From the NCBI GenBank assembly GCA_011523795.1, contig WTFY01000018.1, positions 1-64,000 on the forward strand: a DNA stretch of 64,000 nucleotides, written 5' to 3'. The position numbers and the translations under genes are program-made. The notes under the pieces are model-generated. The model was not told where the DNA came from. It saw only the letters and a program-made list of their open reading frames with translations, and searched no databases. Positions 12,317 through 45,755 of this stretch are shown here, in pieces. The DNA is from Gammaproteobacteria bacterium (GTDB taxonomy: Bacteria; Pseudomonadota; Gammaproteobacteria; UBA4575). How positions within the stretch are numbered: position 1 is the first letter of the stretch; every line of letters starts with the position of its first letter.

Positions 12317-12425
12317 CCACCAGACCATATGCAGCCAAATCGTAGTATAGTCTTGAACGGAAATTTGCCAGTTCACTGCTCGATCATCCTCACCTTGACA
12401 TCTATCTTGCCCGCTCACTTTCTTC

Positions 12426-12749: not shown

Positions 12750-12774
12750 CCTTTAATCATCGTCACTGACAGGA

Positions 12775-27137: not shown

Positions 27138-29450
27138 TTATGCTGTCAGTCGAAAATAAAGCATGGGCAACCGCTCAGGCAATCTTTCCAGCTTGTCAAT
27201 GACGGCTACGTTTTTTTTGCCAAAAATCTTGTGCAAGTAACTGTCACCACTCCCGTCCAGCCCAACACAAAATGTATCGATACCCAGCCGGGAAATCGAT
27301 CGGGCTACTTTCTTGGCATCCTCGACCAGATACAGCTGATCATCCACATCAATATCTGAGGGCTCACCATCCGACACGACCAGCAACAACCTCCTGTGTG
27401 TATGCTGGTTTATTAGGTCGCTGGTTGCATGCCTCATTGCTGTTCCCATGCGTGTTGAAAGTTTTCCCTTCAGGCCAGCCAGATAGGCACGCGCTGAAGA
27501 GTCGTATGGAGAATCAAAGTTTTTGATCCTGTAATAATGAACATCTTCCTTGCCATCTGAGCAAAATGCAGAAATGGCAAACGGGTCGCCCAGTTCAGAC
27601 ATGGCATAAGCTAGCAGGCTCGTTGCCTGAAGTTCAAGTTCCAGTATCGAAGTGCCTGCAGTCTGGACTTTGTCGTTCGTTGAATTGGAAACATCCAGCA
27701 ATACGAGCACGGAGAGGTCTCGATGCTTGCGCTCCGTGGTGCTATATATTCTAGGATCCGGAGTTTCACCCATTCTCCTGCTTATCACCGCATTGATGCA
27801 CGCATCCAGATCAAGCGACTCACCCACATTTTGATGATGCAGACGTTCAGGCAAGCTCACTTTTGCAGACTGTATTAAGTTTGTAATCCGATTCACAAGC
27901 TTGCTGTGCTTTTCCAGAATCCGGTCGATCTTTAAGGCATCCCCAAAGTCCGGGAAATACTCCACGGCACAGGTCCAACTAGGCCGCTCTGCCCCGGTCA
28001 AGTAGTCATACTCAGGATAACGAACTGCAACTTCTGACTCCCTGTGTTCGGAATCAGTACTTTCCCTAGCAGAATATTGCTGTTCATTCCGGTCATCGCT
28101 TTGCTCGCTATCTTGACTACTGGAAGAGTCATCATCAGATTCCTGCGGGCTGGTACGCATGGCTTCAATAAAGATCCCTTCGTCACTTTCCTCCTGGCCC
28201 TGACGGTCACCAAAGTCCCACAGACCCATGTTGTCATCACGATAAGGCGGTTCAACAACGTAGGTTTTTGAATTGAACTGCGCACGCAACTGACCTAAAT
28301 CATTGCCCAGCAGCCCCCCGATTCTTCTGCACATGGCTGGGTCAGTAAAATCGTTTCCCGGATCAAAAAACATGTCACGACCCTTCTGCACCCAACCGTC
28401 TCCATCCCTGTATCCTGAATCGATCAGTGCACGTGCAAGTCTGGACAGCAATAACGGTACCAGTTTCGGGCCACTCGGTTTTGCAGTATGGAACGGCAGC
28501 CACAATTCACCCAAACCAGGAAAGGCCTGCATGGCCAAGTACTCCACTCGGGCATCTTCCAACAACGACACCAATGCAACCTGTATTGGCTTGAGTTCGC
28601 CTAGCACGAATTTTTTGGTTGAATACATCAAGTGTGCTCCGGCATGCGCGATCCCCGCTCTGAAAATCGTTTCAGCTTGTTCATCGTGGAAACCCGGGAA
28701 AACCTCGGGCACCTGAATGACTCCGTTCGAAATTGAAATTCGGCGCACCGATAACGGGGCACTTGAGGCAATCAGATCACGCATCGGAGGGCATAAATTC
28801 CACAAAGAGATCAGGTAGAGCTTCAGTTTTCTCTCCAAATTAGTAAATACGACATCTCCTGCTTCATGTAGAAACCATTTTTCCGATTCGGGATCAACAA
28901 AAGAAAAATATTGGATTTGCCTCAAGGTATCATCGCCTGTTGATCGCAGACCCGCCAGCACCCACGACCTGAACCGGTCAGGAGTTAACGTGGAAACAAT
29001 TTTCTGTGTACGTTCCAGTACGGCAAGAGAAGACTCTGGAGCATGATGTATCAACTCCTCGACAGTTGCTATCCAGGAAGAAAATGAATGAGATGATTTC
29101 AACTCGGCGGCTGCGATCACTGCAGCTTTCGGCAGCAATTCAGCAGCGGCACGATTTACCTTTATCGCTGCAAGGGATACTGATGCAGATAGATTGATTG
29201 CAGCTTCTGGATTTAAGGTCTTGACCAGTTTGGGAGAGTGACGAGCATAGGAAAGCGGGATCAGCGCCCCATACCCTGCCTGTGCGAGCTTATTGCAAGC
29301 ACTTTCCCAGATTGCCTGGTATTCGCCCCGGAAGGCCAGCTTGCCCTTGTCTACCAGATAGACCAGTCTTTCGTCAGGACTGCCAGGTTCTTGACTATGC
29401 GGCTGGACAGCGTATTTTCCTCGCGTCGCGGTCGCAACCAAAACTCGCAC
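27138..29450 (-). CDS. CbbO/NorD-type von Willebrand A domain protein
   Basis: A 770-residue protein with the layout of CbbO/NorD: a long helical N-terminal half, an acidic Ser/Asp/Glu-rich linker (about 418-474) and a C-terminal VWA domain with a metal-ion-dependent adhesion site (DVSNS at 586-590, RMGTAMRHA, then VSDGEPSD). CbbO works with the AAA+ ATPase CbbQ to reactivate Rubisco; NorD pairs with NorQ for nitric oxide reductase. The start is a GTG just after the cbbQ-like stop, so the two are coupled. No Rubisco or Nor genes occur in the window, and the neighbour is an amidase, so the client is unknown. Confidence 0.85.
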   Translation of the reverse strand: MRVLVATATRGKYAVQPHSQEPGSPDERLVYLVDKGKLAFRGEYQAIWESACNKLAQAGYGALIPLSYARHSPKLVKTLNPEAAINLSASVSLAAIKVNRAAAELLPKAAVIAAAELKSSHSFSSWIATVEELIHHAPESSLAVLERTQKIVSTLTPDRFRSWVLAGLRSTGDDTLRQIQYFSFVDPESEKWFLHEAGDVVFTNLERKLKLYLISLWNLCPPMRDLIASSAPLSVRRISISNGVIQVPEVFPGFHDEQAETIFRAGIAHAGAHLMYSTKKFVLGELKPIQVALVSLLEDARVEYLAMQAFPGLGELWLPFHTAKPSGPKLVPLLLSRLARALIDSGYRDGDGWVQKGRDMFFDPGNDFTDPAMCRRIGGLLGNDLGQLRAQFNSKTYVVEPPYRDDNMGLWDFGDRQGQEESDEGIFIEAMRTSPQESDDDSSSSQDSEQSDDRNEQQYSARESTDSEHRESEVAVRYPEYDYLTGAERPSWTCAVEYFPDFGDALKIDRILEKHSKLVNRITNLIQSAKVSLPERLHHQNVGESLDLDACINAVISRRMGETPDPRIYSTTERKHRDLSVLVLLDVSNSTNDKVQTAGTSILELELQATSLLAYAMSELGDPFAISAFCSDGKEDVHYYRIKNFDSPYDSSARAYLAGLKGKLSTRMGTAMRHATSDLINQHTHRRLLLVVSDGEPSDIDVDDQLYLVEDAKKVARSISRLGIDTFCVGLDGSGDSYLHKIFGKKNVAVIDKLERLPERLPMLYFRLTA

Positions 29451-29451
29451 C

Positions 29452-30249
29452 TCATGCGCAGGCTGTAATTGCCGAACTCAATGCATTGCGCACATCACGG
29501 TCATCCGTAATGGGCAACACCAAGGCAACCTCGCATGCATCCTGAAGCGAGACACCCTGTGCCATCAACTGAGCGGCATATATCAACATTCGAGTCGATG
29601 CACCCTCATCCAGGCCATGTCCCTTCAGATTCCTGGAACGCTCAGATATATACACAAGCTTTGCGGCAGTCTTGTCATCGATGCCAGATTCATGCGAGAT
29701 GATCTTTGCCTCGTCCTCGGGGCTGGGGTAATCGAAATCAATGGCACCAAATCTTTGCTTTGTTGATTCCTTCAAATCCTTTAAGACGCTTTGGTAGCCC
29801 GGGTTATAGGAAATGATAATTTGAAAATCCTGATGCGCCCTTACCACTTCATTTTTCTTTTCCAGGGACAGTATGCGTCGATCATCTGTTAAGGAGTGGA
29901 TAACAACACTCGTGTCCTGTCTGGCTTCAACAATTTCGTCCAGATAGCACATTGCTCCATGGCGAACCGCTATGGTGAGCGGACCGTCATGCCAGACTGT
30001 CCCTTCTGCATCGAGCAGATAACGACCAACAAGATCCGAGGCCGTCATGTCTTCATGGCAGGATACCGTAATCAAAGGCTTTTGAAGTTTCCAGGCCATA
30101 TATTCAACAAAGCGTGTTTTCCCACACCCGGTCGGGCCCTTCAACATCATCGGCATACGGCTGGCGTAAGCAGCTTCGAACAACTGCACCTCATTATGCG
30201 TCGGGAAATAATAAGGCTCACTTGTGATGGAGTAGCTATCTAGATTCAT
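29452..30249 (-). CDS. CbbQ/NorQ-type AAA+ ATPase (MoxR class)
   Basis: A 265-residue AAA+ ATPase. Walker A is GPTGCGKT at 38-45, Walker B is CYLDEIVEA, and sensor 1 sits in IIISYNPGYQ. Length and motifs match CbbQ and NorQ, which form hexamers with a VWA partner to remodel a metal-containing enzyme. The partner gene follows directly. The strong hairpin 30313-30344 separates it from amiE. The ribosome site is weak. Confidence 0.87.
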   Translation of the reverse strand: MNLDSYSITSEPYYFPTHNEVQLFEAAYASRMPMMLKGPTGCGKTRFVEYMAWKLQKPLITVSCHEDMTASDLVGRYLLDAEGTVWHDGPLTIAVRHGAMCYLDEIVEARQDTSVVIHSLTDDRRILSLEKKNEVVRAHQDFQIIISYNPGYQSVLKDLKESTKQRFGAIDFDYPSPEDEAKIISHESGIDDKTAAKLVYISERSRNLKGHGLDEGASTRMLIYAAQLMAQGVSLQDACEVALVLPITDDRDVRNALSSAITACA

Positions 30250-30359: not shown

Positions 30360-31394
30360 TTAACGATGAGTTTTGGGGTTGGGTATGCCCTCAATCTCAC
30401 ATTCTTCTGTTCCAACAGTCGTTCTGGTAATGGATTCCACCATTTCACGAGTAGCATCCGGGTCGGTGACCCACTTCTTATAGAAGTCATAAGGACACTC
30501 CGCCGCACCTCTTTCACTGTCTCCAGAATTAATCATTCCTGTATATCCGCGATGAAGCAGCTTGAACAGATGGTTTTGTGACTGCTGGTTCTTGCGCGCA
30601 TCCCGAATCAGTGATACGGACAGATTTGCATATTGAACCCCATTCTCCTCTTCGGCACAGGCGCCAAGCGTGCGGCCGTCAAAGCCGATTATCGAAGAGT
30701 AACCGAAGTAAGAGTACACCCCGTCGAATCCTGTAGCATTGGCTACAGCTACGTAGGAATTGTTCATCCACGCCATGGCTTTAGCCACCATGACCTGCTG
30801 GTCCTTGGACGGATACATGTAGCCCTGGCACCGGATGATGAGTTCCGCACCTTTCATCGCGCAGTCTCTCCAGATTTCAGGGTAATTGCCGTCGTCACAA
30901 ATGATCAAACTGATTTTCAATCCTTTCGGACCATCTGATACATATGTGCAGTTTCCAGGATACCACCCCTCGATAGGTACCCATGGCATGATCTTGCGAT
31001 ACTTTTGCACGATTTCACCCTGATCATTCATGAGTATCAGCGTGTTGTAGGGAGCCTTGTTGGGGTGCTCCTCGTGCCGCTCGCCTGTCAGCGAAAACAC
31101 GCCCCAGACTTTTGCACTACGACACGCCTCTGCAAATATTTCGGTTTCTTCACCTGGACAACTGGATGCAGTCTCATACATCTCTTTCTCGTCATACATG
31201 ATCCCATGCGTGCTGTACTCAGGGAATATGACAAGATCCATTCCAGGCAGTCCGACTTTCATCCCCTCAATCATGGTCGCAATATTGCGCGCATTGTCGA
31301 GGACCTCTTCTTTAGTATGCATGCGAGGCATCTTGTAATTGACTACAGCAACGCCCACTGCATCTTTACTACTTGAAATATCACCGTGATACAT
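30360..31394 (-). CDS. amiE: Aliphatic amidase
   Basis: Hydrolyses short aliphatic amides such as acetamide and propionamide to the acid and ammonia in the cytoplasm. The 344-residue protein matches Pseudomonas AmiE almost from end to end (MYHGDISSS..., [21 protein letters not shown]). The nitrilase-fold triad is present: Glu59 in FPEYS, Lys134 in QKYRKIMPW and Cys166 in [11 protein letters not shown]. It is not the shorter-range formamidase type. AGGAGG lies seven bases before the ATG. No amiC or amiR regulator genes are seen beside it. Confidence 0.96.
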
Positions 31395-31977: not shown

Positions 31978-32313
31978 GTGCTTAATTTTGAAGAAAAATT
32001 CATAGCAGATGAAAAGGAAAGGCTGAAGTACCTGCTGACACAACTCATGCCCCTGCTTGCAAGGGACCACACCTTAGAAGGTCAGGAAAACCACCGGGTT
32101 GTTTCGGGCATACTGAGGCAGAACTTGACACATACTGAATTGCTGGAAGAGCTCTGGCCAGTATTTGCAACCCCTGATGCAAAGCCCAAGCAACTTGTGC
32201 TGGCTGATGACGTTGAACGGAACCTTGGACCAAACCGTTCTGCCGAATACCTGGGCCTGCACGCAGATATCAGCTACATGGTGGTAAAGCACTTAACTGG
32301 CGCCCACAAGTAG
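31978..32313 (+). CDS. Conserved-looking hypothetical protein, 111 aa
   Basis: Starts at a GTG with no clear ribosome site (VLNFEEKFIADEKERLKYLL). It is mostly helical and charged, without membrane segments, signal or cysteines, and ends AEYLGLHADISYMVVKHLTGAHK. It follows the 48-residue gene by 12 bp and ends at a two-way hairpin shared with the tubulin-like gene A. I do not recognise it. It could be a regulator or a small partner protein of the flanking amidase or tubulin-like genes; nothing in the sequence says which. Confidence 0.6.
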   Translation: MLNFEEKFIADEKERLKYLLTQLMPLLARDHTLEGQENHRVVSGILRQNLTHTELLEELWPVFATPDAKPKQLVLADDVERNLGPNRSAEYLGLHADISYMVVKHLTGAHK

Positions 32314-32430: not shown

Positions 32431-33693
32431 CTAATTACACTGCTTTTGTTTAGCCTTGCTTAGCTTGTCGTAGGCACCTTTTGCATCGGCAAAACAGACA
32501 AGGTCAGTACTTGTGAGTCCAGGAAGAAGAATATCGGCATAAGAAGTCAGATGATCAAAAAATTCATGATGATCTATCTGGATGCTCGAATCTTCCGCAG
32601 TCAGAAAGCTGTCCTTGAGCCTTTGTGCCAACTTGTCCTGTAGGCGATCTACACCAATTTCACGCGGTGCATGCATGTGTACATCTGCATGATTTGTCCG
32701 GAACTCCTTGTTCAACCCGGAAAAATCATCAAGGTGATCAATCCACTGTTCTATCACCTTTCTCCACTTGCTTAAGGCTTCACCTGGTAGTACCTGTACG
32801 CCTGGATGTGTAAATTTCGCCAAATTGTAATACATCCATTTGCCAGACCTGTTGCTTTCATCGGCTGCCTGCAGCATGTGAGCCATCTCCAGACCGGAAT
32901 CCCGAACTGCATACCGCATGAATGAATCCTGGGCAAACTTGTTGGTTACTTCCTGACGGATCCGGTCGCGCACTGCCGGTACGCCAGTTTCCGTATAGGA
33001 TGTAAGCCGCTGCCAGGAATGTTCAGTGTTCACAACAAAAAAACCGCCTGTAAACGGGTTGTTTTGATCCTTTGACTGACCTCCGGTCATGCCGTCAATT
33101 TCGCTGAGGCCCGCATACAGGCTGGCAGGTACATCCCCATCCCCGCTATGCGGGAGTTGTCCTACACCGAATACCGGGATATCTTTTTTCAAGATGTCGG
33201 CTGCCAGGTGACGGGTCAGGTCTGGTGCCATGCCGCTCCCTGTACCGCCTGCCAAGTTAAAGCAAACCATAATTCGTGAAGGCAGTTCAGATTGCTCAGC
33301 ATGGTTTACAAATGCTGCCAAGGATGCTTCAAGACCACTTTGATCATCGCCAGATGCCTTGGCATACATAGCCTTGGCCTCTGCCCTAGACAAATGTCCC
33401 CCCGATTCAGCCAGAGAAATAGACTGGAACTGAAAGTGCTCAGCAGGAATTCCCTGCTCTTCAAGACGCTGGCTCAATCCAGCGGCATAACCCTTTACAC
33501 GCAACAGGTCATCCTCACCTGTATCTATTACCAGTGCTGCCACCCTAGCACGGGAATCCATCAGGACATCTTCAATCTCACCCGTTCGAAGTAACCCGTC
33601 TACATAACCCGCTCCAGAACGTCCAATTCCAATTGCACTTACGCTATACGGTGCAGATCCATCCGTTGCACCACCGGACTTAGTTTTAGCCAT
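32431..33693 (-). CDS. Tubulin/FtsZ-like GTPase family protein A
   Basis: A 420-residue protein of the tubulin/FtsZ superfamily. It has an N-terminal glycine loop AIGIGRSGAGYV (20-31) and the tubulin signature AGGTGSG (GGTGSG at 149-154). A stretch EVTNKFAQDSF may be the loop that completes the GTPase site between subunits. It shares with protein B the stretches FTHPGVQVLPGE, SKWRKV and FFDHLTSYADI, and the H-x-H-APRE motif. It lacks the Tyr/Trp-rich insert and the Cys-rich tail found in B and C. GAGGGTG precedes the ATG. Cell-division FtsZ is unlikely: no division genes are nearby and the body of the protein is very different. Confidence 0.8.
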   Translation of the reverse strand: MAKTKSGGATDGSAPYSVSAIGIGRSGAGYVDGLLRTGEIEDVLMDSRARVAALVIDTGEDDLLRVKGYAAGLSQRLEEQGIPAEHFQFQSISLAESGGHLSRAEAKAMYAKASGDDQSGLEASLAAFVNHAEQSELPSRIMVCFNLAGGTGSGMAPDLTRHLAADILKKDIPVFGVGQLPHSGDGDVPASLYAGLSEIDGMTGGQSKDQNNPFTGGFFVVNTEHSWQRLTSYTETGVPAVRDRIRQEVTNKFAQDSFMRYAVRDSGLEMAHMLQAADESNRSGKWMYYNLAKFTHPGVQVLPGEALSKWRKVIEQWIDHLDDFSGLNKEFRTNHADVHMHAPREIGVDRLQDKLAQRLKDSFLTAEDSSIQIDHHEFFDHLTSYADILLPGLTSTDLVCFADAKGAYDKLSKAKQKQCN

Positions 33694-33843: not shown

Positions 33844-34218
33844 CTAGTGGCGTGGGCCCTGATCAGGGTGTAGCAACAACCGTTCCACGCGCTGTCCCTT
33901 CATGACATGAACTTTCAGAATTTCGTCTACATCAGCTTCACAGCTGTACGTATACCAGACACCTTCAGGGTAGATAACGAGTGTTGGCCCTATTTCACAG
34001 CGATTCAAACAACCTGAGTGATTTACCCTGATGCCTTGGAGTCCGAGAGCCATCGAACGCCGGCACATATAGTCACAGAGTTCTTGTGACCCTTTTGCAA
34101 GACAGCTGCCTCGCCGATGAGATGCAGGTCTTTTGTTCGTGCAGCAGAAAATATGGACATCATAAAAAAGTTCTTCACTGCGAGCCTGCCTGCTGCTTAC
34201 ACTTCGCCATTCAGCCAT
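33844..34218 (-). CDS. Thioredoxin-like 2Fe-2S ferredoxin
   Basis: A 124-residue protein with the cysteine layout of the thioredoxin-fold 2Fe-2S ferredoxins: Cys25/Cys26, Cys39, Cys70 and Cys74 (HIFCCTNKR, GSCLAKG, NHSGCLNRCEIGP), then VIYPEGVWYTY. Such proteins carry electrons or serve redox sensing. GGAG lies six bases before the ATG. It lies between the peroxiredoxin and tubulin-like gene A on the same strand, with wider gaps (179 and 150 bp) than elsewhere in the set. A small hairpin (34236-34255) lies just upstream. The electron partner is unknown. Confidence 0.85.
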   Translation of the reverse strand: MAEWRSVSSRQARSEELFYDVHIFCCTNKRPASHRRGSCLAKGSQELCDYMCRRSMALGLQGIRVNHSGCLNRCEIGPTLVIYPEGVWYTYSCEADVDEILKVHVMKGQRVERLLLHPDQGPRH

Positions 34219-34397
34219 GTGCTACTCCGCAATGCCTGTAGTCTTGCAACTACAGCGCCTTTCAACTCCCGTGAACAAACTGCCGCTTCAATGCTTCCAG
34301 AAAGTATTTTGCATTACTTTATCCAGTCAAGCTCCCACACGCGTTCCTACTCGCCTCGGTTGACCACTCAGGATTCAAGCCAGAATCTCACGTCAAC

Positions 34398-34892
34398 TCA
34401 CACAGCCCCAATTAATGCATCTGCACTGCTCGCCTCACATGCAAGAATGCTTTCCTCGATGTTCAGAACGGTCACCACACCATCCTTAACTATCATCGAG
34501 TAACGCTCGGAACGATCTCCCAGCCCGAAATCTGAAAGGTCCAGACCGAGACCTATAGACTTTGCAAATCCTGCCCCTGGATCCGTCAGCATCATGACAC
34601 TGCTGCCCGCACCGTGCTCTTGCGCCCATGCCTGCAAGACAAAGGGATCATTCGCGGATATGCATACAATGGTGTCAATACCCTTTGCAAGCAAATCGTC
34701 TGCGTGCTTGGCAAAACTCGGTAAATGCTGCTCTGAACATACAGGTGTGTATGCGCCCGGCAATCCAAATACAGCTACGGTCTTGCCCTCGAAAATCTCC
34801 TCACTGGTACTGGTACGCACATCCAAGGGCGAATCAGGACCCATCCATTTGAATACTGCAGACGGGACTCTGTTACCCACTTCAATTGCCAC
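34398..34892 (-). CDS. Peroxiredoxin, Prx5 type
   Basis: A 164-residue thiol peroxidase. The peroxidatic cysteine is Cys52 in PGAYTPVCSEQHLP, which is the Prx5 form, and a second cysteine near 151 (ILACEASSAD) may be the resolving one. It reduces hydrogen peroxide and organic peroxides. No glutaredoxin domain is fused. It lies between the CbtB-like gene and the 2Fe-2S ferredoxin gene on the same strand. Confidence 0.92.
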   Translation of the reverse strand: MAIEVGNRVPSAVFKWMGPDSPLDVRTSTSEEIFEGKTVAVFGLPGAYTPVCSEQHLPSFAKHADDLLAKGIDTIVCISANDPFVLQAWAQEHGAGSSVMMLTDPGAGFAKSIGLGLDLSDFGLGDRSERYSMIVKDGVVTVLNIEESILACEASSADALIGAV

Positions 34893-35255: not shown

Positions 35256-36245
35256 TCAGTTCCCAGGCACAACGCACGTTGCAAAGCCTTCGGCAAATTC
35301 ATCTTGATCAAGGTTTTTACCAATCATCACATATTCGGTAACTTTTTCTTCATCTGGAGCCCAAGGACGTTCAGGTTGCATCGAAGTTAACATGCGTACA
35401 CTTTGAAACACCACGCGTTCCTTGAAACCCTGCGCATTAAAAATACCTTTTGTACGGTACATGTCTTCACCGCGCTCCAAGAGCATCTCATTCAGCCAAA
35501 TCATGAACCGGTTCATATCAATAGGCCGTTCCTCACGCAGGACAAATGACCCAACAGACTGATCATGCTCGTGCTCGGTGCCCTCGAGCAGTGTCGGGTC
35601 CAGTTGTAGTTTTTCTCCCAATTCGAAGGCGCCCACACCGAAAACCTTGTCGATCTCTATGTCGCTGTTCTTGGTGTGGTAAACCTTTGCAATGGAATTG
35701 GATTTCCGTATCACCTGCTCGACCTTCTTCAGTTCCTCACTGGACACGAGGTCGGTTTTATTCAAAAGAATGATGTCTGCAAACGCAATTTGCTCTTGCG
35801 CCTCTTCGCTTTGTGCAAGATTTTGTTCAAGGTTGACTGCATCAGCCAGGGTGATGAACGAATCAAGCCTGGTCCTGGAAGTCAGCTTGTCTTCCAAAAA
35901 GAATGTGGAAGCGACCGGTGCCGGGTCAGCCAGTCCTGTGGTTTCAATCAGGATCGCATCAAGTTCTGATCGCTTTTGCAATCTCTCTAGCGTATCTATC
36001 AGGTCACCACGCACAGTGCAGCACAAGCACCCGTTGTTGAATTCCACCAATTCTTCTTGATCATCTTGAACGATCAGCTGTCCGTCTATGCTGATCTCAC
36101 CAAACTCATTCACAATTACCGCAATATTTCTGCCATGCTGCTCGGAGAGGATCCGGTTAATCAGCGTAGTCTTTCCTGACCCCAGGAATCCTGTCACCAC
36201 AGTGACCGGTATACGCCCGCCCGATTGCTTCGCAGCTTCTTCCAT
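35256..36245 (-). CDS. CobW/P47K-type metal chaperone GTPase
   Basis: A 329-residue G3E GTPase of the COG0523 type. Walker A is GFLGSGKT (19-26), the metal-binding motif is CLCC at 73-76 in NNGCLCCTVRG, and the G4 motif is LNKTD. The C-terminal domain has RTKGIFNAQGF. A short EHEHD stretch adds possible metal ligands. This family delivers zinc, cobalt or iron; one member activates nitrile hydratase, usually next to an amidase gene. No nitrile hydratase is seen here. The ATG at 36245 is preceded by GGAGAGG. It lies 29 bp after tubulin-like gene B. Confidence 0.9.
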   Translation of the reverse strand: MEEAAKQSGGRIPVTVVTGFLGSGKTTLINRILSEQHGRNIAVIVNEFGEISIDGQLIVQDDQEELVEFNNGCLCCTVRGDLIDTLERLQKRSELDAILIETTGLADPAPVASTFFLEDKLTSRTRLDSFITLADAVNLEQNLAQSEEAQEQIAFADIILLNKTDLVSSEELKKVEQVIRKSNSIAKVYHTKNSDIEIDKVFGVGAFELGEKLQLDPTLLEGTEHEHDQSVGSFVLREERPIDMNRFMIWLNEMLLERGEDMYRTKGIFNAQGFKERVVFQSVRMLTSMQPERPWAPDEEKVTEYVMIGKNLDQDEFAEGFATCVVPGN

Positions 36246-36274
36246 TACCAAATCCTCTCCAGCATGTGCTTGTA

Positions 36275-37945
36275 TTACGGCGTTGGAACAACCGTCTTGG
36301 TCATCATGTCGATGCCTTCTGCAAGGATCGACGTGCGGTCTGCTGGCGGCAGTGTATCACCCCGCATTTGGTCATACGGAACCACTACCCAGCAGGCACA
36401 ACCCCACAGGCATTCGCCAGCCATGCCATTGAAACGGATCGCTGGCTCAGACATCATCACGCCCAAATCAAGCAGCCACGAATGAAGCAGCAGCTTTCCT
36501 TCCCAATCGTGGGTATCGTATGCCTCGCGCGATTTCCAGAAGACATCGAGATCGGTCTTTGCCATGCCTGGCAGAATGATATCTGCATAGGAAGTCAGGT
36601 GATCGAAGAACTCATGGTTACTGATCTGAAACGTTGAATCATCGCCTGAAACCAGAAACTTGTCCCTGATCTTGGCCTCCAAGGCACTGTCAAGCTCATC
36701 GAAACCAAGTTCGCGTGGTGCATGCGCGTGCACCTCGGCATAGTCAGTCCTGAAATCCTTGCTGACCCCTGAGTAGTCATCAATATGTCCTACCCACTGA
36801 TCCATCACCTTACGCCACTTGCTGATCGGTTCACCTGGAAGCACCTGCACTCCAGGATGCGTGAACTTCGACAGGTTGTAGAGCGTCCAGTTTCGAGACT
36901 TCCCGCTGACTGTTTCATGGGGGGCACCCGTGAATCCTGCCGGCCTCAATGCGCGGAACAACAGCTTGCCGTCTTCCTTGTAGGCAAAGCGCATGAATGA
37001 ATCCTGGGCAAATTTGTTGGTCACCTCATTAGCAATTCGGTGACGAACCTCAGGATCTATATTGCGGTTTCTGTCGTCGTTCTGCGTATAGGATGACAGC
37101 CTTTGGAAAGAGTGCTCGGTGTTAACCGCCATGAATCCGCCAGTAAACGGGCTTTTATACAAATCGCCCCATACTGCGCAAACTCCAGCATTCTTGTCAT
37201 CATCAAGCATGCAGTCAATCTCATTCAGCGTCGGAAATATTGCTGGATTCACGGCTTCTCCGTCGCCACTGTTGGGAAGCTGCCCTACACCTACCACGGG
37301 GATGCGCCGTCCGAGCTTGACCGAAGACAAGTGGCGTGCCAAGTCGACCATGATGCCACTGCCAGTACCTCCATTAATGCTGAAACAAGTCAGCACCATG
37401 GACGGCAGCTGAGCCTGCTCGACATGATCGGCAAACCTCTGCAGAGCCCTTTCCATCGGGCGGTCCCCATCGTAATAGGCTCGTGCATACAGTGCTTTAG
37501 CAACGGCCCGAGGGATATGGTCTCCAGCTTTCGGCATCGTCAGATTGGATGGAAGCCATGGTTCGTAATTAGGGTTCCAGTAATACCTTGGATACTCAAG
37601 TTTCAGAAACTCGCGCATCCTTCTCAAGGAATTAAACAGGTCATCACGCTCCGGGATCTCCAGGCTAATCGCCTCGAACTGGAAACGCTCCTCGGGTATG
37701 CCGCGTTCTCTCAAACGCTCTCGCAGACCCGCGGCATAGTCCTTGGCCTGAAGCATGTCCTCTTCACCAACATCGACAACCAGTGCCGCAATTCTTGCTC
37801 GAGGATCCTCCAGGATGTCTTCCACCTCACCCGTGCGTAACATCCCATCCACATAGCCTGCGCCGGTTCGGCCAATTCCGACCACATGGATGCAATGCGG
37901 CGCCTGTTCACCGGTTGCACTGTGATACATTGATTTTTGTGCCAT
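36275..37945 (-). CDS. Tubulin/FtsZ-like GTPase family protein B
   Basis: A 556-residue tubulin/FtsZ superfamily protein. The glycine loop is VVGIGRTGAGYV (21-32) and the nucleotide signature NGGTGSG (GGTGSG at 192-197). Residues 104-133 form a Tyr/Trp-rich block identical in protein C. NKFAQDSF is shared with A. The C-terminus has GECLWGCACW with Cys512, 516 and 518, also in C but not A. AGGAGG lies seven bases before the ATG at 37945. It lies between the 108-aa unknown and the CobW-type gene. Its function is unknown; polymer formation is a family-based guess. Confidence 0.8.
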   Translation of the reverse strand: MAQKSMYHSATGEQAPHCIHVVGIGRTGAGYVDGMLRTGEVEDILEDPRARIAALVVDVGEEDMLQAKDYAAGLRERLRERGIPEERFQFEAISLEIPERDDLFNSLRRMREFLKLEYPRYYWNPNYEPWLPSNLTMPKAGDHIPRAVAKALYARAYYDGDRPMERALQRFADHVEQAQLPSMVLTCFSINGGTGSGIMVDLARHLSSVKLGRRIPVVGVGQLPNSGDGEAVNPAIFPTLNEIDCMLDDDKNAGVCAVWGDLYKSPFTGGFMAVNTEHSFQRLSSYTQNDDRNRNIDPEVRHRIANEVTNKFAQDSFMRFAYKEDGKLLFRALRPAGFTGAPHETVSGKSRNWTLYNLSKFTHPGVQVLPGEPISKWRKVMDQWVGHIDDYSGVSKDFRTDYAEVHAHAPRELGFDELDSALEAKIRDKFLVSGDDSTFQISNHEFFDHLTSYADIILPGMAKTDLDVFWKSREAYDTHDWEGKLLLHSWLLDLGVMMSEPAIRFNGMAGECLWGCACWVVVPYDQMRGDTLPPADRTSILAEGIDMMTKTVVPTP

Positions 37946-38048
37946 CACTCAACCTCCTGCTTTTTTTAGTAAATATTTTGTATGCTTAAAATCGGATTAA
38001 GCAATTTTTTAAAACTACTGAATGCTTTACATCGAAAACGAGCAAGAT

Positions 38049-38375
38049 TCAGCATCTTGGTGTAAAGCCCGTATCTTCATCAAGAAAACCCAAATCGTAT
38101 AGAATATGCGCAGCTGACGTTGAACGTTCATCCGTGACATAGACCCGGTAATCTTCTACGAATAGCCCGGGGTCTTTATCAATCACACCTTCTTCAATCA
38201 GCCTGACTCCTTCCTCAAGATTATTTCTGCTCAACTGCGCTTTCCAAATCGGATTCTCTATATAAATCGCATCGTCATCACACCCCGTAACGGTCAGGGT
38301 CTTGCCACCTGCAACGGTAGGCACCTCCATCCCGTCCTTATATCTCTTTTTCACTAGCGCCCAGTCAAGTGGCAT
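38049..38375 (-). CDS. Unknown protein between tubulin-like genes B and C
   Basis: A 108-residue acidic, soluble protein (MPLDWALVKKRYKDG..., ENPIWKAQLSRNNLEEGVRLIEEG...). No signal or membrane helix is seen. The fold looks like a mixed alpha/beta small domain. It lies 44 bp after the stop of tubulin-like gene C and 103 bp before gene B, so it is probably co-transcribed and could be a partner of them. A GTG at 38387 is an alternative start. I do not recognise a family. Confidence 0.7.
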   Translation of the reverse strand: MPLDWALVKKRYKDGMEVPTVAGGKTLTVTGCDDDAIYIENPIWKAQLSRNNLEEGVRLIEEGVIDKDPGLFVEDYRVYVTDERSTSAAHILYDLGFLDEDTGFTPRC

Positions 38376-38419
38376 CGCTCTGGTCACCTCTTTACAAGCG
38401 CTTTCGCTGACGGCATCTG

Positions 38420-40012
38420 TTAGCCTGCCTCAGCTGCTGCAGTGCTTACATCCTGTTCAAGATCCGGCCCGCGAATCTGGTCATAGGGTACGACCACCCA
38501 GCAGGCGCAGCCCCACAGGCACTCTCCAGCCATGCCGTTAAACCGGATAGCCGGCTCGCAAAGCATGACGCCCAAGTCCACCAGCCAAGCATGACATTCC
38601 AGCTTCTGTTCCCACTCGTTCTGGTCATAGGCCTGGCGCGATTCGAAAAACAAATCAAAATCCAGCTTGTTTATGCAGGGCAGGACGAACTGCATGGACG
38701 TCGGGCCCAATCCGGCTGAAGCGGCAATCGCGGGTTCTGCCACCGGCGAAAATGACTTGCCCAAAGCCTCGGCCGCCTTGCACGCCCTGTCATCCTCCGG
38801 GTCAGCCGCCCGCATTTCCAGGAACTCCGGTTTATACGTGCTGCGAATTCCCAGGCGACCGGCCATATCATCACTCGCCTGCAGGTCCCCCTCGGTATCA
38901 GCAAATCCCAGCACATGCGCCCACCGGTTACCGTATGGAGTTCGAGCCGCAGCATGCTGCGTGGGTGGAGCGCCTACCCAGTTCAGCATCCTGAGTGTTT
39001 CCCAAAGATCTATCCCGTTGTTGTGTGTCAGAAATGCCGAAACTTCCCGGTCCATTCGCGCATGGGTTGCTTCCAAGTCACGAGTTGTCTCCCAAACCGC
39101 CTTCTGGGGAACGACAATCACGCCACCGGTAAACGGATTCCGGTACAGGTCACCCCAAACGGACACCACACCCTTGTTCTTTTCCTCGTCCCCCATGCAA
39201 TCCAGCTCATTCAATGCAGGGAACAAATGACTGCCTCTATGGGCTTCGTCATCGCCTTCGCAGGGTAAAATTGCAACGCCAACTACCAGTGCACGCCTGC
39301 CAAAGCAGACATTCGAAAGATGACGTGCCATGTCGACCATGATCCCGCTGCCCGTACCGCCGCCTAGGCCAAACACTACAGCCACCACGGATTGACCTGG
39401 CAGATTGTCGACATTCTCGGCAAAACGCTTCATCGCATCACGCATCGGACGTGTGCCGTCATAGTAGCTTTTTGCATAAATGGCTTTTGATACCGAGCGC
39501 TGGAAGTGTTCCCCTTCCTTGGGCAAGCTGATGCCTGAAGGCAGCCAAGGCTCGTAGTTTGGATTCCAGTAGTACCGGGGATATTCGAGTTTCAGAAATT
39601 CACGCATTCTGCGCAAACTGTTGAAAAGTTCATCCCGCTCAGGGACTTCGAGTGCCACCGTTTCAACATTTGCAACATCCCCAGGCAGCTTTCCAGCAAG
39701 TTCAGATACCTGGAGGAGGTCCTGGTCACCAATGTCAACGGCGAGTACATTCAACGGGGCACTGTCGGATTCGACCTGACGTTCTGCTTTCTCTCGTAAA
39801 ATCTGTGCAATGACGTCTGCGCCTGTTTTGCCTATCCCCACCACTGAAACCGAGCATGGCGTAGTATCCTCTGCACCGATTCGATGTATTCCACGCTGAA
39901 GCGCACTCAGCTTTCTCCTGGCCAGCTTTTCTTCAGCTGTCAACGAAGAAGCGCCTGAAGCCTTGGATTTGGAAGGTCCCTTTCTGGGTGGGGATGGATT
40001 TTTTGTAGCCAT
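38420..40012 (-). CDS. Tubulin/FtsZ-like GTPase family protein C
   Basis: A 530-residue relative of A and B. A Lys/Ser/Pro-rich N-terminal tail (1-45, MATKNPSPPRKGPSKSK) comes before the glycine loop VVGIGKTGADVI (57-68) and GGGTGSG (217-223). It shares with B the block 130-159 and the C-terminal AIRFNGMAGECLWGCACW (Cys498, 502, 504). The region matching NKFAQD of A and B reads NNGID, so its GTPase loop may be changed. The ATG at 40012 has GGAG six bases upstream. The tail suggests a nucleic-acid, membrane or partner contact. Confidence 0.8.
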   Translation of the reverse strand: MATKNPSPPRKGPSKSKASGASSLTAEEKLARRKLSALQRGIHRIGAEDTTPCSVSVVGIGKTGADVIAQILREKAERQVESDSAPLNVLAVDIGDQDLLQVSELAGKLPGDVANVETVALEVPERDELFNSLRRMREFLKLEYPRYYWNPNYEPWLPSGISLPKEGEHFQRSVSKAIYAKSYYDGTRPMRDAMKRFAENVDNLPGQSVVAVVFGLGGGTGSGIMVDMARHLSNVCFGRRALVVGVAILPCEGDDEAHRGSHLFPALNELDCMGDEEKNKGVVSVWGDLYRNPFTGGVIVVPQKAVWETTRDLEATHARMDREVSAFLTHNNGIDLWETLRMLNWVGAPPTQHAAARTPYGNRWAHVLGFADTEGDLQASDDMAGRLGIRSTYKPEFLEMRAADPEDDRACKAAEALGKSFSPVAEPAIAASAGLGPTSMQFVLPCINKLDFDLFFESRQAYDQNEWEQKLECHAWLVDLGVMLCEPAIRFNGMAGECLWGCACWVVVPYDQIRGPDLEQDVSTAAAEAG

Positions 40013-40246
40013 TTCTGTCTCCATTCTTATGAGCTTGTATTAGGAGTCAGCTCTCGCATTCCCTACACGAATGACTGAGTGCCATATTGTATGACTTATT
40101 CAGCGGGCGTGCAATAACATAACACAATGTTTTTTTCCATTGTTTATTTCTATCATGCTCTGTGAAGTCATGTAAGCAGTCTATAGAGTTGCCCCAATCA
40201 CCGTTATCGCTGGATCTCTGTTACATCCCTAGACCCAATCAAATTT

Positions 40247-40909: not shown

Positions 40910-42214
40910 ATGAATAGACGAAAATTTCTTAAAAATTCTGCTGTTGCAGCAGGAACTGCCGCTGCAGCCACACTTGCGGACTTTCCGTACTTTTTTGTCA
41001 GGAAGTATGCGAAAGCTGCAGAGGGTGACACCATCAAAGTAGGGATACTCCATTCACTGAGTGGCACCATTGCCATCATCGAGCGTTCCCTACACAACGC
41101 CGAACTGCTGGCCATTGATGAAATCAATGCTGCAGGCGGGGTCATGGGTAAAATGATCGAGCCTGTAATCGAAGATCCCCAGTCCTTGGTACAGGTATTT
41201 GCAGAAAAGGCGAAAAAGCTGATTCTTGAGGACAAGGTGGTTGCTGTACTGGGCTGCTACACCTCTGCCAGCCGGCAGTCCGTGTTGCCGGTTTTTGAAC
41301 AGCACAACAACGTATTGCTTTATCCTACATTGTACGAGGCACAAGAATGCAGCAAAAACTGTTTCTACACAGGCTGCGTTCCCAACCAGCAACTGGATGA
41401 TTTCGTACCCTGGCTCATCGAGAATGTTGGTCCGAAGTTCTACATGCTCGGGTCCAATTACATTTATCCGAAGGAAACAAATCGTGAAGTCAAGGCATTG
41501 CTCAAGGCCTATGGGGGCGAAAATGTAGGAGAAGAGTATGCGCCGCTCGGGCATACCGAATTTTCTACCAATATCAACAAAATTGCTGCCAAGAGACCTG
41601 ACGTTGTGTTTTCTGACCTGGTGGGCGATTCTGTCGTGGCGTTCTACAAGCAATTCCGGCAATTTGGCATTACAGCGAATGACATCATTATCGGAACGCC
41701 CATTACCACAGAACAGGAAACTGCGGCGATGGGCCCCGAGAATGCTCTGGGCCACCTGACTTCATTCAATTATTTCCAGTCTGTGGACACTCCTGAGAAC
41801 AAGAAGTTCGTTGAATCCTACAAGGCGAAATTTGGTGAAAACGAAGTCACCAATGCCGTCATGGAAGCAGCGTATTTCCAAACACACATGCTGGCCCAGG
41901 CACTGGAGAAGATCGGATCTACCGAAGCAGATGCACTGATTTATGAAGGTCTGCCCGGACAGGAATACTTAGCTCCGGGAGGGAAAGTCAAGATTGATGA
42001 GAAGAATCATCACACGTGGCTGTGGCCCAAGATCGGACGTGCCAACGAGCAAGGCCAGTTTGATATCGTCTGGCAACGTGACGACTGGGTACGCCCCGAT
42101 CCGTGGGTAGACCTGCTGTATCCCAACAAGGATTGCGACTTCACCAATCCTGACGTGCTCGAACGCCTCAAGTCCGGAAGTCCGGACCGTTCAGGGACAT
42201 TCGATCTGAGCTAA
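40910..42214 (+). CDS. urtA: Urea/short-chain amide ABC transporter, substrate-binding protein
   Basis: A 434-residue periplasmic binding protein of the UrtA/FmdD type. The N-terminal RRKFLKNSAV is a twin-arginine signal, with a hydrophobic segment to about 36. Family stretches: GILHSLSGTIAI, INAAGGVMG, LLYPTLYEAQECSKNCFYTG, PNQQLDDFVPWL and EYAPLGHTEF. This family binds urea in cyanobacteria and formamide/acetamide in Methylophilus; the nearby amidase favours amides but urea is equally possible. It is the first gene of a five-gene operon. Confidence 0.92.
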   Translation: MNRRKFLKNSAVAAGTAAAATLADFPYFFVRKYAKAAEGDTIKVGILHSLSGTIAIIERSLHNAELLAIDEINAAGGVMGKMIEPVIEDPQSLVQVFAEKAKKLILEDKVVAVLGCYTSASRQSVLPVFEQHNNVLLYPTLYEAQECSKNCFYTGCVPNQQLDDFVPWLIENVGPKFYMLGSNYIYPKETNREVKALLKAYGGENVGEEYAPLGHTEFSTNINKIAAKRPDVVFSDLVGDSVVAFYKQFRQFGITANDIIIGTPITTEQETAAMGPENALGHLTSFNYFQSVDTPENKKFVESYKAKFGENEVTNAVMEAAYFQTHMLAQALEKIGSTEADALIYEGLPGQEYLAPGGKVKIDEKNHHTWLWPKIGRANEQGQFDIVWQRDDWVRPDPWVDLLYPNKDCDFTNPDVLERLKSGSPDRSGTFDLS

Positions 42215-42227
42215 ACTGATCCTCTCA

Positions 42228-42255
42228 ACGGGTGGCTGTCATCACAGCCACCCGT
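42228..42255 (+). terminator. Hairpin between the binding-protein gene and the permease gene
   Basis: ACGGGTGGCTGT and its exact complement around a CATC loop form a perfect 12-bp stem starting 14 bases after the urtA stop. There is no T-run. Such stems in transport operons often allow more binding protein than membrane subunits, by partial termination or by protecting the 3' end of the message. Confidence 0.7.
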
Positions 42256-42353
42256 ATCAGTTACCGGCTGCGCTCAGTGACACATTTTTCGTTGCCAATA
42301 ATGGATACAAAAACATTGAGCAAATACAAATCTAGGTAAGCCTGGCGTTCGGC

Positions 42354-43223
42354 ATGGAATCGATCATCACTCAATTTCTTAATGGCTTCAGTGTTGTAGC
42401 CATTCTGATGATTGCAGCCGTGGGGCTGGCAATCATCTTCGGAGTGGCCGGTGTAATCAATATGGCCCACGGTGAGTTCATCATGGTCGGGGCTTATACC
42501 GCTGCGGTGGTCGGTCAGCTTGGCGGGAATACCTTTATCGCCATTCCTGTGGCATTCCTTGTCGTGGCCTTGCTGGGTTTGATTGTTGAGAGAAGCATCA
42601 TTCAATGGATCTACGAGCGGCCCCTGGAGACATTGCTTGCCACGTGGGGGGTAGGAATAATCCTGCAGGTTGTCGTGAAACTCATTTTCGGACCAGAGCT
42701 TTACTATGTCGGCGCACCAAAGATTCTTGACGGCGGATTTCGGACAATAGGGTTACTGCCTTTCCCCTGGTACCGGCTATTTCTCATCATCCTCGCGATC
42801 GTGATCATGATCGTAACCTATCTCATTCTTTTCAAAACCGATTTGGGGCTGAAAGTGAGGGCCGTGCGCAGAAATCGCACGATGGCGGGTTGTCTTGGAA
42901 TCGATACAGCAAAAGTCGACATGATTATTTTTGCATTCGGGTCAGGTCTTGCGGGGATTGCAGGGGCGGTTTTGGCCCCCATCAAGTCTGTGTCCACCAC
43001 AATGGGATTCCCCTATGCAGTAGACTCGTTCATGGTCCTGGTGCTTGGCGGCGTGGGGAGCCTCTGGGGGGTTGTGGCAGGTTCCGGATTGATCGGTGAA
43101 GCCGAGACAATTCTCTCCTTCATATACAACAGCGTGATTGGAAAACTGTTGGTCTTCATATTCATCGTCATTGCAATCCGTGTATTCCCGAAAGGCCTCT
43201 TTGGGTATCACGAAAGAACATAA
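42354..43223 (+). CDS. urtB: Urea/amide ABC transporter permease (UrtB/LivH type)
   Basis: A 289-residue inner-membrane permease with about eight helices. It opens SIITQFLNGFSVVAILMIAAVGLAIIFG and has the MAHGEFIMVGAY motif of the family. It is short compared with the long proteobacterial UrtB proteins that have an N-terminal extension. The C-terminal IRVFPKGLFGY is typical. It follows the binding-protein gene after 139 bp including a hairpin. The ribosome site is weak. Confidence 0.93.
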   Translation: MESIITQFLNGFSVVAILMIAAVGLAIIFGVAGVINMAHGEFIMVGAYTAAVVGQLGGNTFIAIPVAFLVVALLGLIVERSIIQWIYERPLETLLATWGVGIILQVVVKLIFGPELYYVGAPKILDGGFRTIGLLPFPWYRLFLIILAIVIMIVTYLILFKTDLGLKVRAVRRNRTMAGCLGIDTAKVDMIIFAFGSGLAGIAGAVLAPIKSVSTTMGFPYAVDSFMVLVLGGVGSLWGVVAGSGLIGEAETILSFIYNSVIGKLLVFIFIVIAIRVFPKGLFGYHERT

Positions 43224-43251
43224 GTCAATGCAAGTCAAGGAGTAGCCAGGC

Positions 43252-44313
43252 ATGGCAGAAGATCGACAGATATACAGAACTCCAATGTTTCCATTGTGGG
43301 CCGTTATTGCTGCGACCGGGATTGTCCTGGCTATTGCCACGTACCCCTTTTACGGGGCGGCGTATGTTACTTCTCTGCTAGGAAAGTTCCTGTGTTTCTC
43401 GATATTTGCTTTGAGCATCGATTTAATCTGGGGCTTTACTGGAATTTTGAGTCTTGGACAGGGAGTGTATTTTGGAATAGGAGCTTATTTCACTGCATTA
43501 TCCCTGAAAATCAATTATGCGCTGGTGAACCCCACTCGCTACGGCGGAACCATACCGGATTTCATGGAATGGAACGGGCTTACTGAACTGCCCGGCTTCA
43601 TGGCTCCCTTGCAAAGCCTGTCTTTTTCGGTAGTAGCAGGCCTGTTCTTTGCCACACTGCTTGCCTTCATCTTTGGTGTAATCACCTTCAAGAGACACAT
43701 CTATGGGGTCTACTGTGCGGTGATCACACTCGCAGAATCCCTGATTCTTCAGGAAGCCATAATCGAGTATCAAGCCTATACAGGCGGATTTAACGGGATC
43801 ACGGATTACGGCACCCACGCGCAGATCAATGTACTCTGGTTGATCCTGGCTGTGACGATCGTATTTTTTGTAATCGGGCGTATCCTTACCCACTCCCGGG
43901 TCGGGACCGTGCTCAAATCGATTCGTGACAATGATACCCGTGCTGAATTCATGGGATACAATGTAGCCAACTACCGCATTTTCGTCTTCTGTATTTCCAG
44001 TTTCATGGCGGCAGCCGCGGGTGCGATGTATGCAGCATGGAATGGCATAATTTCATTCCTCGATGCCGGCCCCGTATTTTCCATAGAGGGAGTCATATGG
44101 ACTGCAGTGGGAGGCAGGGGCACTATCATCGGGCCGTTCATTGGTGCATTCCTGGTAAAAGGCTCTGAATTTTTCCTGAGCGGAAAGCTTGCATGGACAT
44201 GGCAGCTCATCATGGGTGCCCTGTTCATATTTGTAGTGTTGGTAATGCGTGATGGTATTGTTGGTACTATCGGAAAATGGTTGAACGCCAGAAAAAAACG
44301 CACGTCAAACTAA
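43252..44313 (+). CDS. urtC: Urea/amide ABC transporter permease (UrtC/LivM type)
   Basis: A 353-residue second permease with about ten membrane segments. Family motifs: SIDLIWGFTGILSLGQGVYFGIGAY, GGFNGITDYG, and RDNDTRAEFMGYNVANYR in the cytoplasmic loop that contacts the ATPases. AAGGAG lies nine bases before the ATG. The next gene starts one base after its stop, so translation is coupled. Confidence 0.94.
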   Translation: MAEDRQIYRTPMFPLWAVIAATGIVLAIATYPFYGAAYVTSLLGKFLCFSIFALSIDLIWGFTGILSLGQGVYFGIGAYFTALSLKINYALVNPTRYGGTIPDFMEWNGLTELPGFMAPLQSLSFSVVAGLFFATLLAFIFGVITFKRHIYGVYCAVITLAESLILQEAIIEYQAYTGGFNGITDYGTHAQINVLWLILAVTIVFFVIGRILTHSRVGTVLKSIRDNDTRAEFMGYNVANYRIFVFCISSFMAAAAGAMYAAWNGIISFLDAGPVFSIEGVIWTAVGGRGTIIGPFIGAFLVKGSEFFLSGKLAWTWQLIMGALFIFVVLVMRDGIVGTIGKWLNARKKRTSN

Positions 44314-44314
44314 A

Positions 44315-45067
44315 ATGGCTAACATCCTCGAAGTCAAAAACCTTACTACGAAAGTAAGTGGCTACACCATCCTGAACAACCTGGACTTCAGTATCCAGGA
44401 GAACGAGTTGCGTGTGGTGCTGGGTCCTAATGGCGCAGGAAAAACCACGCTCATAGATATGATCACAGGAAGGTATAAGCCCAAGACCGGCAAGATCTAT
44501 TTCAACGGTGAAGATATCACAGGAATGCCGCCTGACAAGATTTTTGTAAAAGGAGTAAGCAGGAAATTTCAAGTTCCCAATTTGTACGAGACGCTATCTG
44601 TCTACGACAACATCATGGTGTCTTTAAAAGGCCGCAGAAAAGTCATCAAGTCGCTCTTCGGCAAAGTCGAAAAGCAGGACAATGACCGAATCTGGGAGAT
44701 CCTGGATTTCATCAGCCTGTCTGACAAGGCGGAAGACAGCGTTGATACACTTGCGCACGGACAACGGCAATGGCTGGAACTCGGTATGCTTGTTGCGTCC
44801 GAGCCAAAATTACTGCTGCTGGATGAGCCCACAACAGGAATGACTAAAGACGGCAAAGACAAAACGGCAGAACTGATTGAAAAGATTGCACAAAATCATT
44901 CTGTGATGCTGGTGGAGCATGATATGGATGTCGTCAGGAGAATTGCCAAAAATGTCACTGTGCTTGCACAAGGACAGATACTTGCCGAAGGACCCCTGTC
45001 CGAAGTGGTGCAGAACAAAGAGGTAAAGGCAGTTTATCTTGGCAAAGGGGCACAGGATGGGACTTGA
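44315..45067 (+). CDS. urtD: Urea/amide ABC transporter ATP-binding protein (UrtD type)
   Basis: A 250-residue ABC ATPase. Walker A is GPNGAGKTT, the signature is LAHGQRQWLELGML, and Walker B is LLLLDEPTTGM. The AHGQRQW form is special to the UrtD group. It starts one base after urtC and its stop overlaps the start of urtE by 11 bases. Confidence 0.94.
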   Translation: MANILEVKNLTTKVSGYTILNNLDFSIQENELRVVLGPNGAGKTTLIDMITGRYKPKTGKIYFNGEDITGMPPDKIFVKGVSRKFQVPNLYETLSVYDNIMVSLKGRRKVIKSLFGKVEKQDNDRIWEILDFISLSDKAEDSVDTLAHGQRQWLELGMLVASEPKLLLLDEPTTGMTKDGKDKTAELIEKIAQNHSVMLVEHDMDVVRRIAKNVTVLAQGQILAEGPLSEVVQNKEVKAVYLGKGAQDGT

Positions 45068-45755
45068 AATACAGGGCATTGATACCTTTTACGGGACAAG
45101 CCATATCCTTCACGGCGTAACGCTGAATGTGCCTGACGGTGCAATGGTCAGCGTGTTGGGGCGCAACGGAGTGGGAAAGTCTACCTTGCTGAAAAGCATA
45201 ATCGGGATCAATCCCCCCAAGAATGGCTCTATCCAGTTCAATGGCGCGGATGTTACGAAAGAAAAGACTCACCAGCATGTGAGAGCAGGAATCAGCTACA
45301 TTCCTCAAGGCCGTGAGATCATCCCGGATATCAGCGTGTATGAAAACTTGATGGTCGCAATGCGGGGTATAAAAAATCGCAGTAAAAAGATTCCAGCATT
45401 TATTTTTGAATATTTCCCGGCACTGGAGCCAACCCAGAAACGCAAGGGTGGAGTCCTGAGCGGTGGACAGCAACAACAGCTTGCGATTGCCCGCGCACTC
45501 ATTCAAGAACCCAGCTTGTTACTGATGGATGAACCAACTGAAGGTCTGCAGCCTTCCGTGGTTGAGGAAATCAACACTATCATTCAACGCATCCATAAAG
45601 AGAGGAACTGCTCCATATTGCTGGTAGAGCAAAACCTTGATTTTGTGCGTGATGTCACCGAACACTTTGCAATCATGGATAGCGGTCAAATCGTGGAAGA
45701 AGGGGATATCCAGTTATTGACGGATGAATTTGCCGGGCAATACCTGTCTGTCTGA
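45057..45755 (+). CDS. urtE: Urea/amide ABC transporter ATP-binding protein (UrtE type)
   Basis: A 232-residue ABC ATPase. Walker A is GRNGVGKSTLL, the signature is LSGGQQQQLAIARAL, and Walker B is LLLMDEPTEGLQPS. I chose the ATG at 45057 over a TTG at 45039, since it fits the family start (MGLEIQGIDTFYGTSHILHG). It ends the transporter operon and is followed by a weak hairpin before the convergent hydrolase gene. Confidence 0.94.
   Translation: MGLEIQGIDTFYGTSHILHGVTLNVPDGAMVSVLGRNGVGKSTLLKSIIGINPPKNGSIQFNGADVTKEKTHQHVRAGISYIPQGREIIPDISVYENLMVAMRGIKNRSKKIPAFIFEYFPALEPTQKRKGGVLSGGQQQQLAIARALIQEPSLLLMDEPTEGLQPSVVEEINTIIQRIHKERNCSILLVEQNLDFVRDVTEHFAIMDSGQIVEEGDIQLLTDEFAGQYLSV

Follow-up and report, generated by a model that had tools for sequence, protein, structure and literature searches.

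The window, a stretch of 64,000 nucleotides from a gammaproteobacterial genome assembly (contig WTFY01000018.1), carries two genes for tubulin-like proteins, B and C, with a gene for a small protein, E, lying between them (Table 1). This C-E-B core is accompanied by a truncated paralogue of B, designated A, and by genes for a CobW-type GTPase, an aliphatic amidase, a CbbQ-type ATPase with a VWA-domain partner, an acetyl-CoA synthetase-like ligase, and an ABC transporter of the urea/amide type. Judged by their sequences, the genes of the window encode a full predicted route from acetonitrile through acetamide and acetate to acetyl-CoA. The reading frame of B opens at either GTG 37948 or ATG 37945, and homologues of E begin at the Met encoded at 38375.

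Table 1. Positions of genes and sequence segments in the window, with the basis of each assignment
Feature	Position	Strand	Basis
Acetyl-CoA synthetase-like ligase	25158..27095	-	AMP-binding + ACAS_N
VWA-domain partner of the CbbQ-type ATPase	27138..29450	-	PF00092, E 1.5e-7
CbbQ-type AAA+ ATPase	29452..30249	-	PF08406, E 4e-32
Aliphatic amidase (next step: acetamide to acetate)	30360..31394	-	NF009802, 710 bits (cut-off 427)
A, truncated B paralogue without block and cysteine motif	32431..33693	-	Alignment, tree
(2Fe-2S) ferredoxin-like protein	33844..34218	-	NF041613, 70 bits (below cut-off 195)
Peroxiredoxin (Redoxin)	34398..34892	-	PF08534, E 5e-30
CobW-type GTPase, likely metal chaperone	35256..36251	-	PF02492, E 2e-60
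B, predicted tubulin-fold subunit, second structural gene (ANHase 'beta' position)	36275..37948	-	Model, RHA1 homology
Second identical run in B, residues 500-526	36368..36448	-	B/C comparison
Cysteine motif GECLWGCACW in B (C512, C516, C518)	36389-36418	-	B/C comparison
Tyr/Trp-rich block in B, residues 104-133	37547..37636	-	Translation; S3-H3 loop
E, AnhE-like 12-kDa protein between C and B	38049..38387	-	41% to RHA1 counterpart
C, predicted tubulin-fold subunit encoded first in the C-E-B core (ANHase 'alpha' position)	38420..40024	-	Tubulin_2, model, RHA1 homology
Second identical run in C, residues 490-516	38477..38557	-	B/C comparison
Cysteine motif GECLWGCACW in C (C502, C506, C508)	38498-38527	-	B/C comparison
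Identical block in C, residues 134-163	39536..39625	-	Translation
Five-gene urea/amide-type ABC transporter (UrtABCDE-like)	40910..45755	+	TIGR03407, 433 bits (below cut-off 493); BPD_transp_2, ABC_tran

The peroxiredoxin and ferredoxin-like genes (33844-34892) lie between the CobW gene and A; speculatively, their products could serve cysteine oxidation or the formation of Co(III) during maturation. A small conserved protein (31978-32313, plus strand) has no Pfam match and recurs at the corresponding position in relatives (71% and 49%). Close relatives (L028, L029, and L030) come from uncultured proteobacterial metagenome-assembled genomes (MAGs), and no relatives were found in viral contigs or phages. 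A defence role for the locus was considered and set aside, PADLOC having returned no convincing match.

Identical segments in B and C

The initial annotation drew attention to a Tyr/Trp-rich block of 30 residues (FNSLRRMREFLKLEYPRYYWNPNYEPWLPS) said to be identical in B and C but coded differently. Translation of the two intervals confirms the identity, and the true identical run comprises 31 residues, L103-S133 in B (counted from ATG 37945) and L133-S163 in C (from ATG 40024). The residue numbers originally assigned in B (104-133) stand, whereas those assigned in C (130-159) fit a start at the second Met and become 134-163 when counted from ATG 40024. The two proteins share 230 of 492 aligned residues, corresponding to 42.5% identity over 536 positions, and in 20,000 shuffles of their match pattern the longest run never exceeded 19; the identity of the block is thus confirmed as real and beyond chance.

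At the DNA level, 23 of the 90 bases of the block differ between B and C, all of them silently, and identical codons are used at only 7 of 27 degenerate positions, compared with 9.9 expected from random codon choice. Synonymous sites in the run are saturated rather than nearly identical, and no dS value is obtainable from them. Because the silent sites are saturated, recent gene conversion between the two genes is ruled out. In the tree, moreover, B and C form separate clades, each of which repeats the same bacterial lineages. The earlier proposal of an old duplication preserved by strong selection, as opposed to recent conversion, therefore agrees with the saturated silent sites and with the separate clades.

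The second longest identical run, which is absent from the initial annotation, spans 27 residues (EPAIRFNGMAGECLWGCACWVVVPYDQ) near both C-termini. It contains three cysteines with the spacing C-x3-C-x-C (C-L-W-G-C-A-C). A lacks the block, as had been reported, and it also lacks the whole C-terminal cysteine region.

Predicted fold and relation to acetonitrile hydratase

Pfam tubulin models match B and C weakly to moderately, with C scoring 41.2 bits against Tubulin_2 (cut-off 27). Structure models based on 37 homologues, from the window and from public data, reached a pLDDT of 85.8 and a pTM of 0.89 for B, and 86.6 and 0.88 for C; local confidence at the block and cysteines was middling (about 69-88 in B and about 77-93 in C). 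Foldseek matched both models to TubZ, FtsZ, CetZ, and tubulin with a probability of 1.00 (E 2.9e-10 for B and 1.7e-10 for C), and structural alignment of B gave Z scores of about 20 against CetZ and FtsZ and about 18 against tubulin. The B/C profile also matched CetZ1 by sequence (E 1.4e-4), while a sequence search of solved structures returned no close relative of either protein. As modelled, B and C clearly belong to the tubulin/FtsZ fold.

The glycine motifs of the T1 and T4 loops (G24, G26, G29, and GTGSG) are invariant, being kept even in the decayed copies described below and largely in A, which suggests that the subunits may still bind nucleotide and assemble. Inspection of the sequences together with the models revealed no counterpart, after H7, of the acidic pair in the FtsZ T7 loop. 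A conventional FtsZ is also encoded in the same genome; when the B/C profile was compared with it by hhalign, the T1 region alone was aligned (Prob 13.5), so the mapping of T3 and T7 depends on the models. In the predicted structure of B, the block is placed between strand S3 and helix H3, where it would constitute an enlarged loop at the T3 position of the tubulin fold.

The closest replicon matches by sequence were plasmids of Rhodococcus and one of Agrobacterium. On plasmid pRHL2 of Rhodococcus jostii RHA1, the gene order is amidase, C homologue, a 99-residue protein, B homologue, and a nickel/cobalt transporter; identity to the window proteins is 44% for C, 41% for E, and 48% for B over nearly their full length. 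The computed masses of the RHA1 homologues of C, E, and B are 55.76, 11.09, and 63.02 kDa, respectively, and the genes of this trio are RHA1_RS41530/41535/41540 (WP_011600030-32). The acetonitrile hydratase (ANHase) of this strain, reportedly described by Okamoto and Eltis in 2007 and by Okamoto et al. in 2010, is said in the original papers to have subunits of about 56 and 63 kDa and an AnhE of 11.1 kDa. As published, the RHA1 genes are arranged alpha - AnhE - beta (PMC3511329; PMC7193024), which is the order of C-E-B in the window, and AnhE is the metallochaperone of this cobalt enzyme (PMC3511329; PMC3680314). The functional enzyme is reported to contain one cobalt, two copper, and one zinc (PMC3766881). 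We tentatively assigned the pRHL2 locus as that of ANHase by gene order, sizes, and context (amidase and transporter), and gene order and homology likewise mark the window system as a predicted ANHase homologue.

The order of first subunit, small protein, and second subunit was found in all 25 loci in which both subunit genes were read; these cores come from 18 loci of the genome collection together with several plasmid and relative-genome loci. An aliphatic amidase lies near most of them. Three unrelated cobalt uptake systems adjoin the core in different lineages, namely CbtA/CbtB in Agrobacterium, Rhizobium, Williamsia, and Rubrobacteraceae; CbiM/N with or without Q/O in several actinobacteria and Oculatella; and NiCoT in RHA1 and one deltaproteobacterial MAG. 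CobW is found elsewhere. Because different importers have been recruited to one and the same core, the core probably needs cobalt.

Joint loss of the block and the cysteines

To follow the two segments across the family, 63 homologous rows were scored by identity to the window at 12 block positions and 10 cysteine-motif positions. The rows fell into two classes, with either 10-12 of 12 block positions and 8-10 of 10 motif positions, or at most five of each. Within every chain, block and cysteine motif were both kept or both lost, with no discordant row. Both segments are present in both chains in gammaproteobacteria, some alpha- and deltaproteobacteria, cyanobacteria, and Rubrobacter. In Rhodococcus, Gordonia, Williamsia, and Pseudonocardia, they persist in C only and are lost from B, which in RHA1 reads FGGTPDHFAPW and GKPLSGATGW at the two places; in Agrobacterium, Rhizobium, Mesorhizobium, and relatives, they persist in B only and are lost from C. 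Every B-C pair retains at least one complete copy of block and cysteines.

On a tree made without the block and cysteine-motif columns, each trait changes four times, and the four changes are the same: in actinobacterial B, in rhizobial C, and twice in A. The loss in A is less specific because its whole C-terminus is missing. A sign test on the four co-losses gives p = 0.125, four events being too few to reach p < 0.05 in any case; the pattern also holds in three gene pairs and one A that were identified only once it had been recognised. Intact chains have 91 invariant positions. Both decayed groups have lost 17 of them, and 13 of these 17, including all three cysteines, fall in the block and cysteine segments (Fisher p = 0.0006). 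Such co-loss within single chains, with a full copy always left in the pair, is the pattern expected if each subunit had an active site of its own.

Within B, the A-type genes fall into two distinct groups, and the hypothesis of a single clade is rejected (p-AU 0.0002). A-type paralogues (window 32431-33693; L027:19631-20779) thus had two origins in B, and the flanks of the block survive in some A proteins; the idea of A as an ancestor without the block was ruled out. In rhizobia, A comes after a CbbQ-VWA pair, an arrangement that may hint at a part in maturation. On the Shinella plasmid pgSHIWSD5 (L046:8711-9046, 11983-13131), the ANHase locus is broken: of B, only the final 111 residues survive, cysteine motif included, and CbbQ, VWA, and an A-type gene come after them.

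The initial annotation had also suggested that the block may be an interaction surface of B and C. A protein-protein contact, whether of B with C or of both with a shared partner, would suit a segment that is identical in the two partners, is absent from A, and lies near what we take to be the face making longitudinal contacts in the tubulin fold. In whole lineages, however, one partner has lost the block, always along with the cysteines of the same chain, yet the decayed genes of actinobacterial B and rhizobial C stay beside an intact partner. Since decayed chains remain with intact partners, pairing needs no block on both sides; nor can a contact surface explain why loss of the block is always joined with loss of the three cysteines. 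We accordingly regard an interaction surface as unlikely.

Proposed active site and known systems

It is probable, in our assessment, that B and C together make up a tubulin-fold cobalt nitrile hydratase of the ANHase type, in which block and cysteines form an active-site module in each chain. B and C would be the two structural subunits, and the small protein between them would be an AnhE-type cobalt chaperone. In each chain, the block and the C-terminal G-E-C-L-W-G-C-A-C-W segment would come together as one metal site. Taking the C-x-L-C-S-C claw of ordinary nitrile hydratases as a model, we infer that cobalt is bound by the three cysteines and that the aromatic block, brought close to them, lines the pocket in which a nitrile is hydrated to its amide. 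The neighbouring genes for the amidase and the acetyl-CoA synthetase would supply the enzymes for the steps that follow. The duplication giving B and C would be older than the spread of the family, with selection on the catalytic module having kept the copies identical while the remainder fell to about 45% identity. The lineage of the window would have preserved the module in both chains, and hence two sites per pair, and other lineages would have let one copy decay. Consistent with this scheme, the RHA1 pair contains exactly one complete module, matching its one reported cobalt (PMC3766881). For the family as a whole, we lean towards a history in which ANHase is a branch of the tubulin/FtsZ superfamily turned metalloenzyme, with the T3 loop and cysteines as a cobalt site that was ancestrally present twice per heterodimer and was lost reciprocally.

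The metal at the cysteine motif could instead be copper or zinc. A copper, zinc, or disulfide site serving structure or maturation, and not catalysis by cobalt, would accord with the two copper and one zinc reported for ANHase besides cobalt (PMC3766881) and with a cysteine spacing unlike the canonical C-x-L-C-S-C. Nevertheless, the C-A-C end resembles the C-S-C claw, and the observation that either chain may lose its copy so long as at least one complete copy stays in the pair is what would be expected of one essential site, leaving this alternative improbable. More doubtful still is a cytoskeletal or filament-forming tubulin pair in which the enlarged T3 loop would adjust polymerisation or the sensing of nucleotide. 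In favour of such a pair are the clear tubulin fold, the T1/T4 glycine motifs, which do not vary even where copies have decayed, and the position of the block after S3, at the site of the FtsZ T3 loop. Against it, the context across lineages is nitrile/amide catabolism and cobalt handling, no FtsZ-T7-like acidic pair was seen, the cysteine motif goes unexplained, and the genome also encodes a normal FtsZ.

Proteins of the tubulin/FtsZ superfamily are familiar as polymers driven by GTP, and we know of none described as a metal-dependent catabolic enzyme. ANHase has been known since 2007 and, to the best of our knowledge, has had no recognised relatives. Our literature search, which covered papers available without subscription, found none among the papers listed that joins nitrile hydratase with tubulin or FtsZ, and the ANHase literature, in its available excerpts, does not mention tubulin. 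To our knowledge, four points are new here: the assignment of the fold, the proposal of an active site, the form with twin sites, and the loss that is reciprocal between the subunits. If B and C are indeed a cobalt nitrile hydratase, a tubulin fold would have been turned into a cobalt enzyme, and ANHase would acquire a fold and a proposed active site, with its one-site and two-site forms making up a natural series. The database label 'tubulin-like' on nitrile-catabolism proteins would likewise be explained, and the family would offer a clean case of reciprocal active-site loss from paralogous subunits in different lineages. Nitrile hydratases are important both industrially and for nitrile detoxification.

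Canonical Co/Fe nitrile hydratases share with B and C the proposed reaction and a cysteine cluster ending in C-x-C; their motif is given as C-x-L-C-S-C in one account (PMC7329996). They differ in having another fold, B and C being more than twice as long, and in spacing, C-x3-C-A-C in B and C having one more residue after the first cysteine than C-x2-C-S-C. Neither protein has a Pfam nitrile hydratase match (PF02979/PF02211) or the C-x-L-C-S-C motif, and B and C do not belong to the canonical family. The same genome also encodes a conventional nitrile hydratase alpha subunit (PF02979, E 1e-74), and a gene for a CbtA cobalt transporter lies about 7 kb away (G000 contig C9:125601-126173 and C9:117539-118189; L053, L060); two unrelated cobalt nitrile hydratases may thus coexist in this organism. 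A nitrile hydratase from a sponge, possibly of symbiont origin, acts on aeroplysinin-1 (PMC3766881).

With FtsZ, TubZ, CetZ, and tubulin, B and C share the overall predicted fold and the T1/T4 glycine motifs, but they are distinguished by the large insert after S3, the C-terminal cysteine extension, and the catabolic context. FtsZl1 and FtsZl2 are likewise bacterial proteins that resemble FtsZ but have diverged from it and carry inserts between T1 and T4, and VWA genes occur near FtsZl1 (PMC2875224). FtsZl1 is described as having an extended coiled coil and as occurring in a context of membrane remodelling, and FtsZl2 as having a specific C-terminal region and no conserved neighbours (Makarova and Koonin 2010, PMC2875224); the context of B and C is nitrile catabolism. 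The nearest known system is the ANHase of RHA1, which has the same three-gene order, homologous subunits and AnhE-type protein, and an amidase and cobalt/nickel transporter nearby. It differs in that its block-cysteine module is present in the first subunit only, whereas the window has the module in both, and the window adds A, CobW, the peroxiredoxin, the ferredoxin-like protein, CbbQ/VWA, and the Urt-type transporter.
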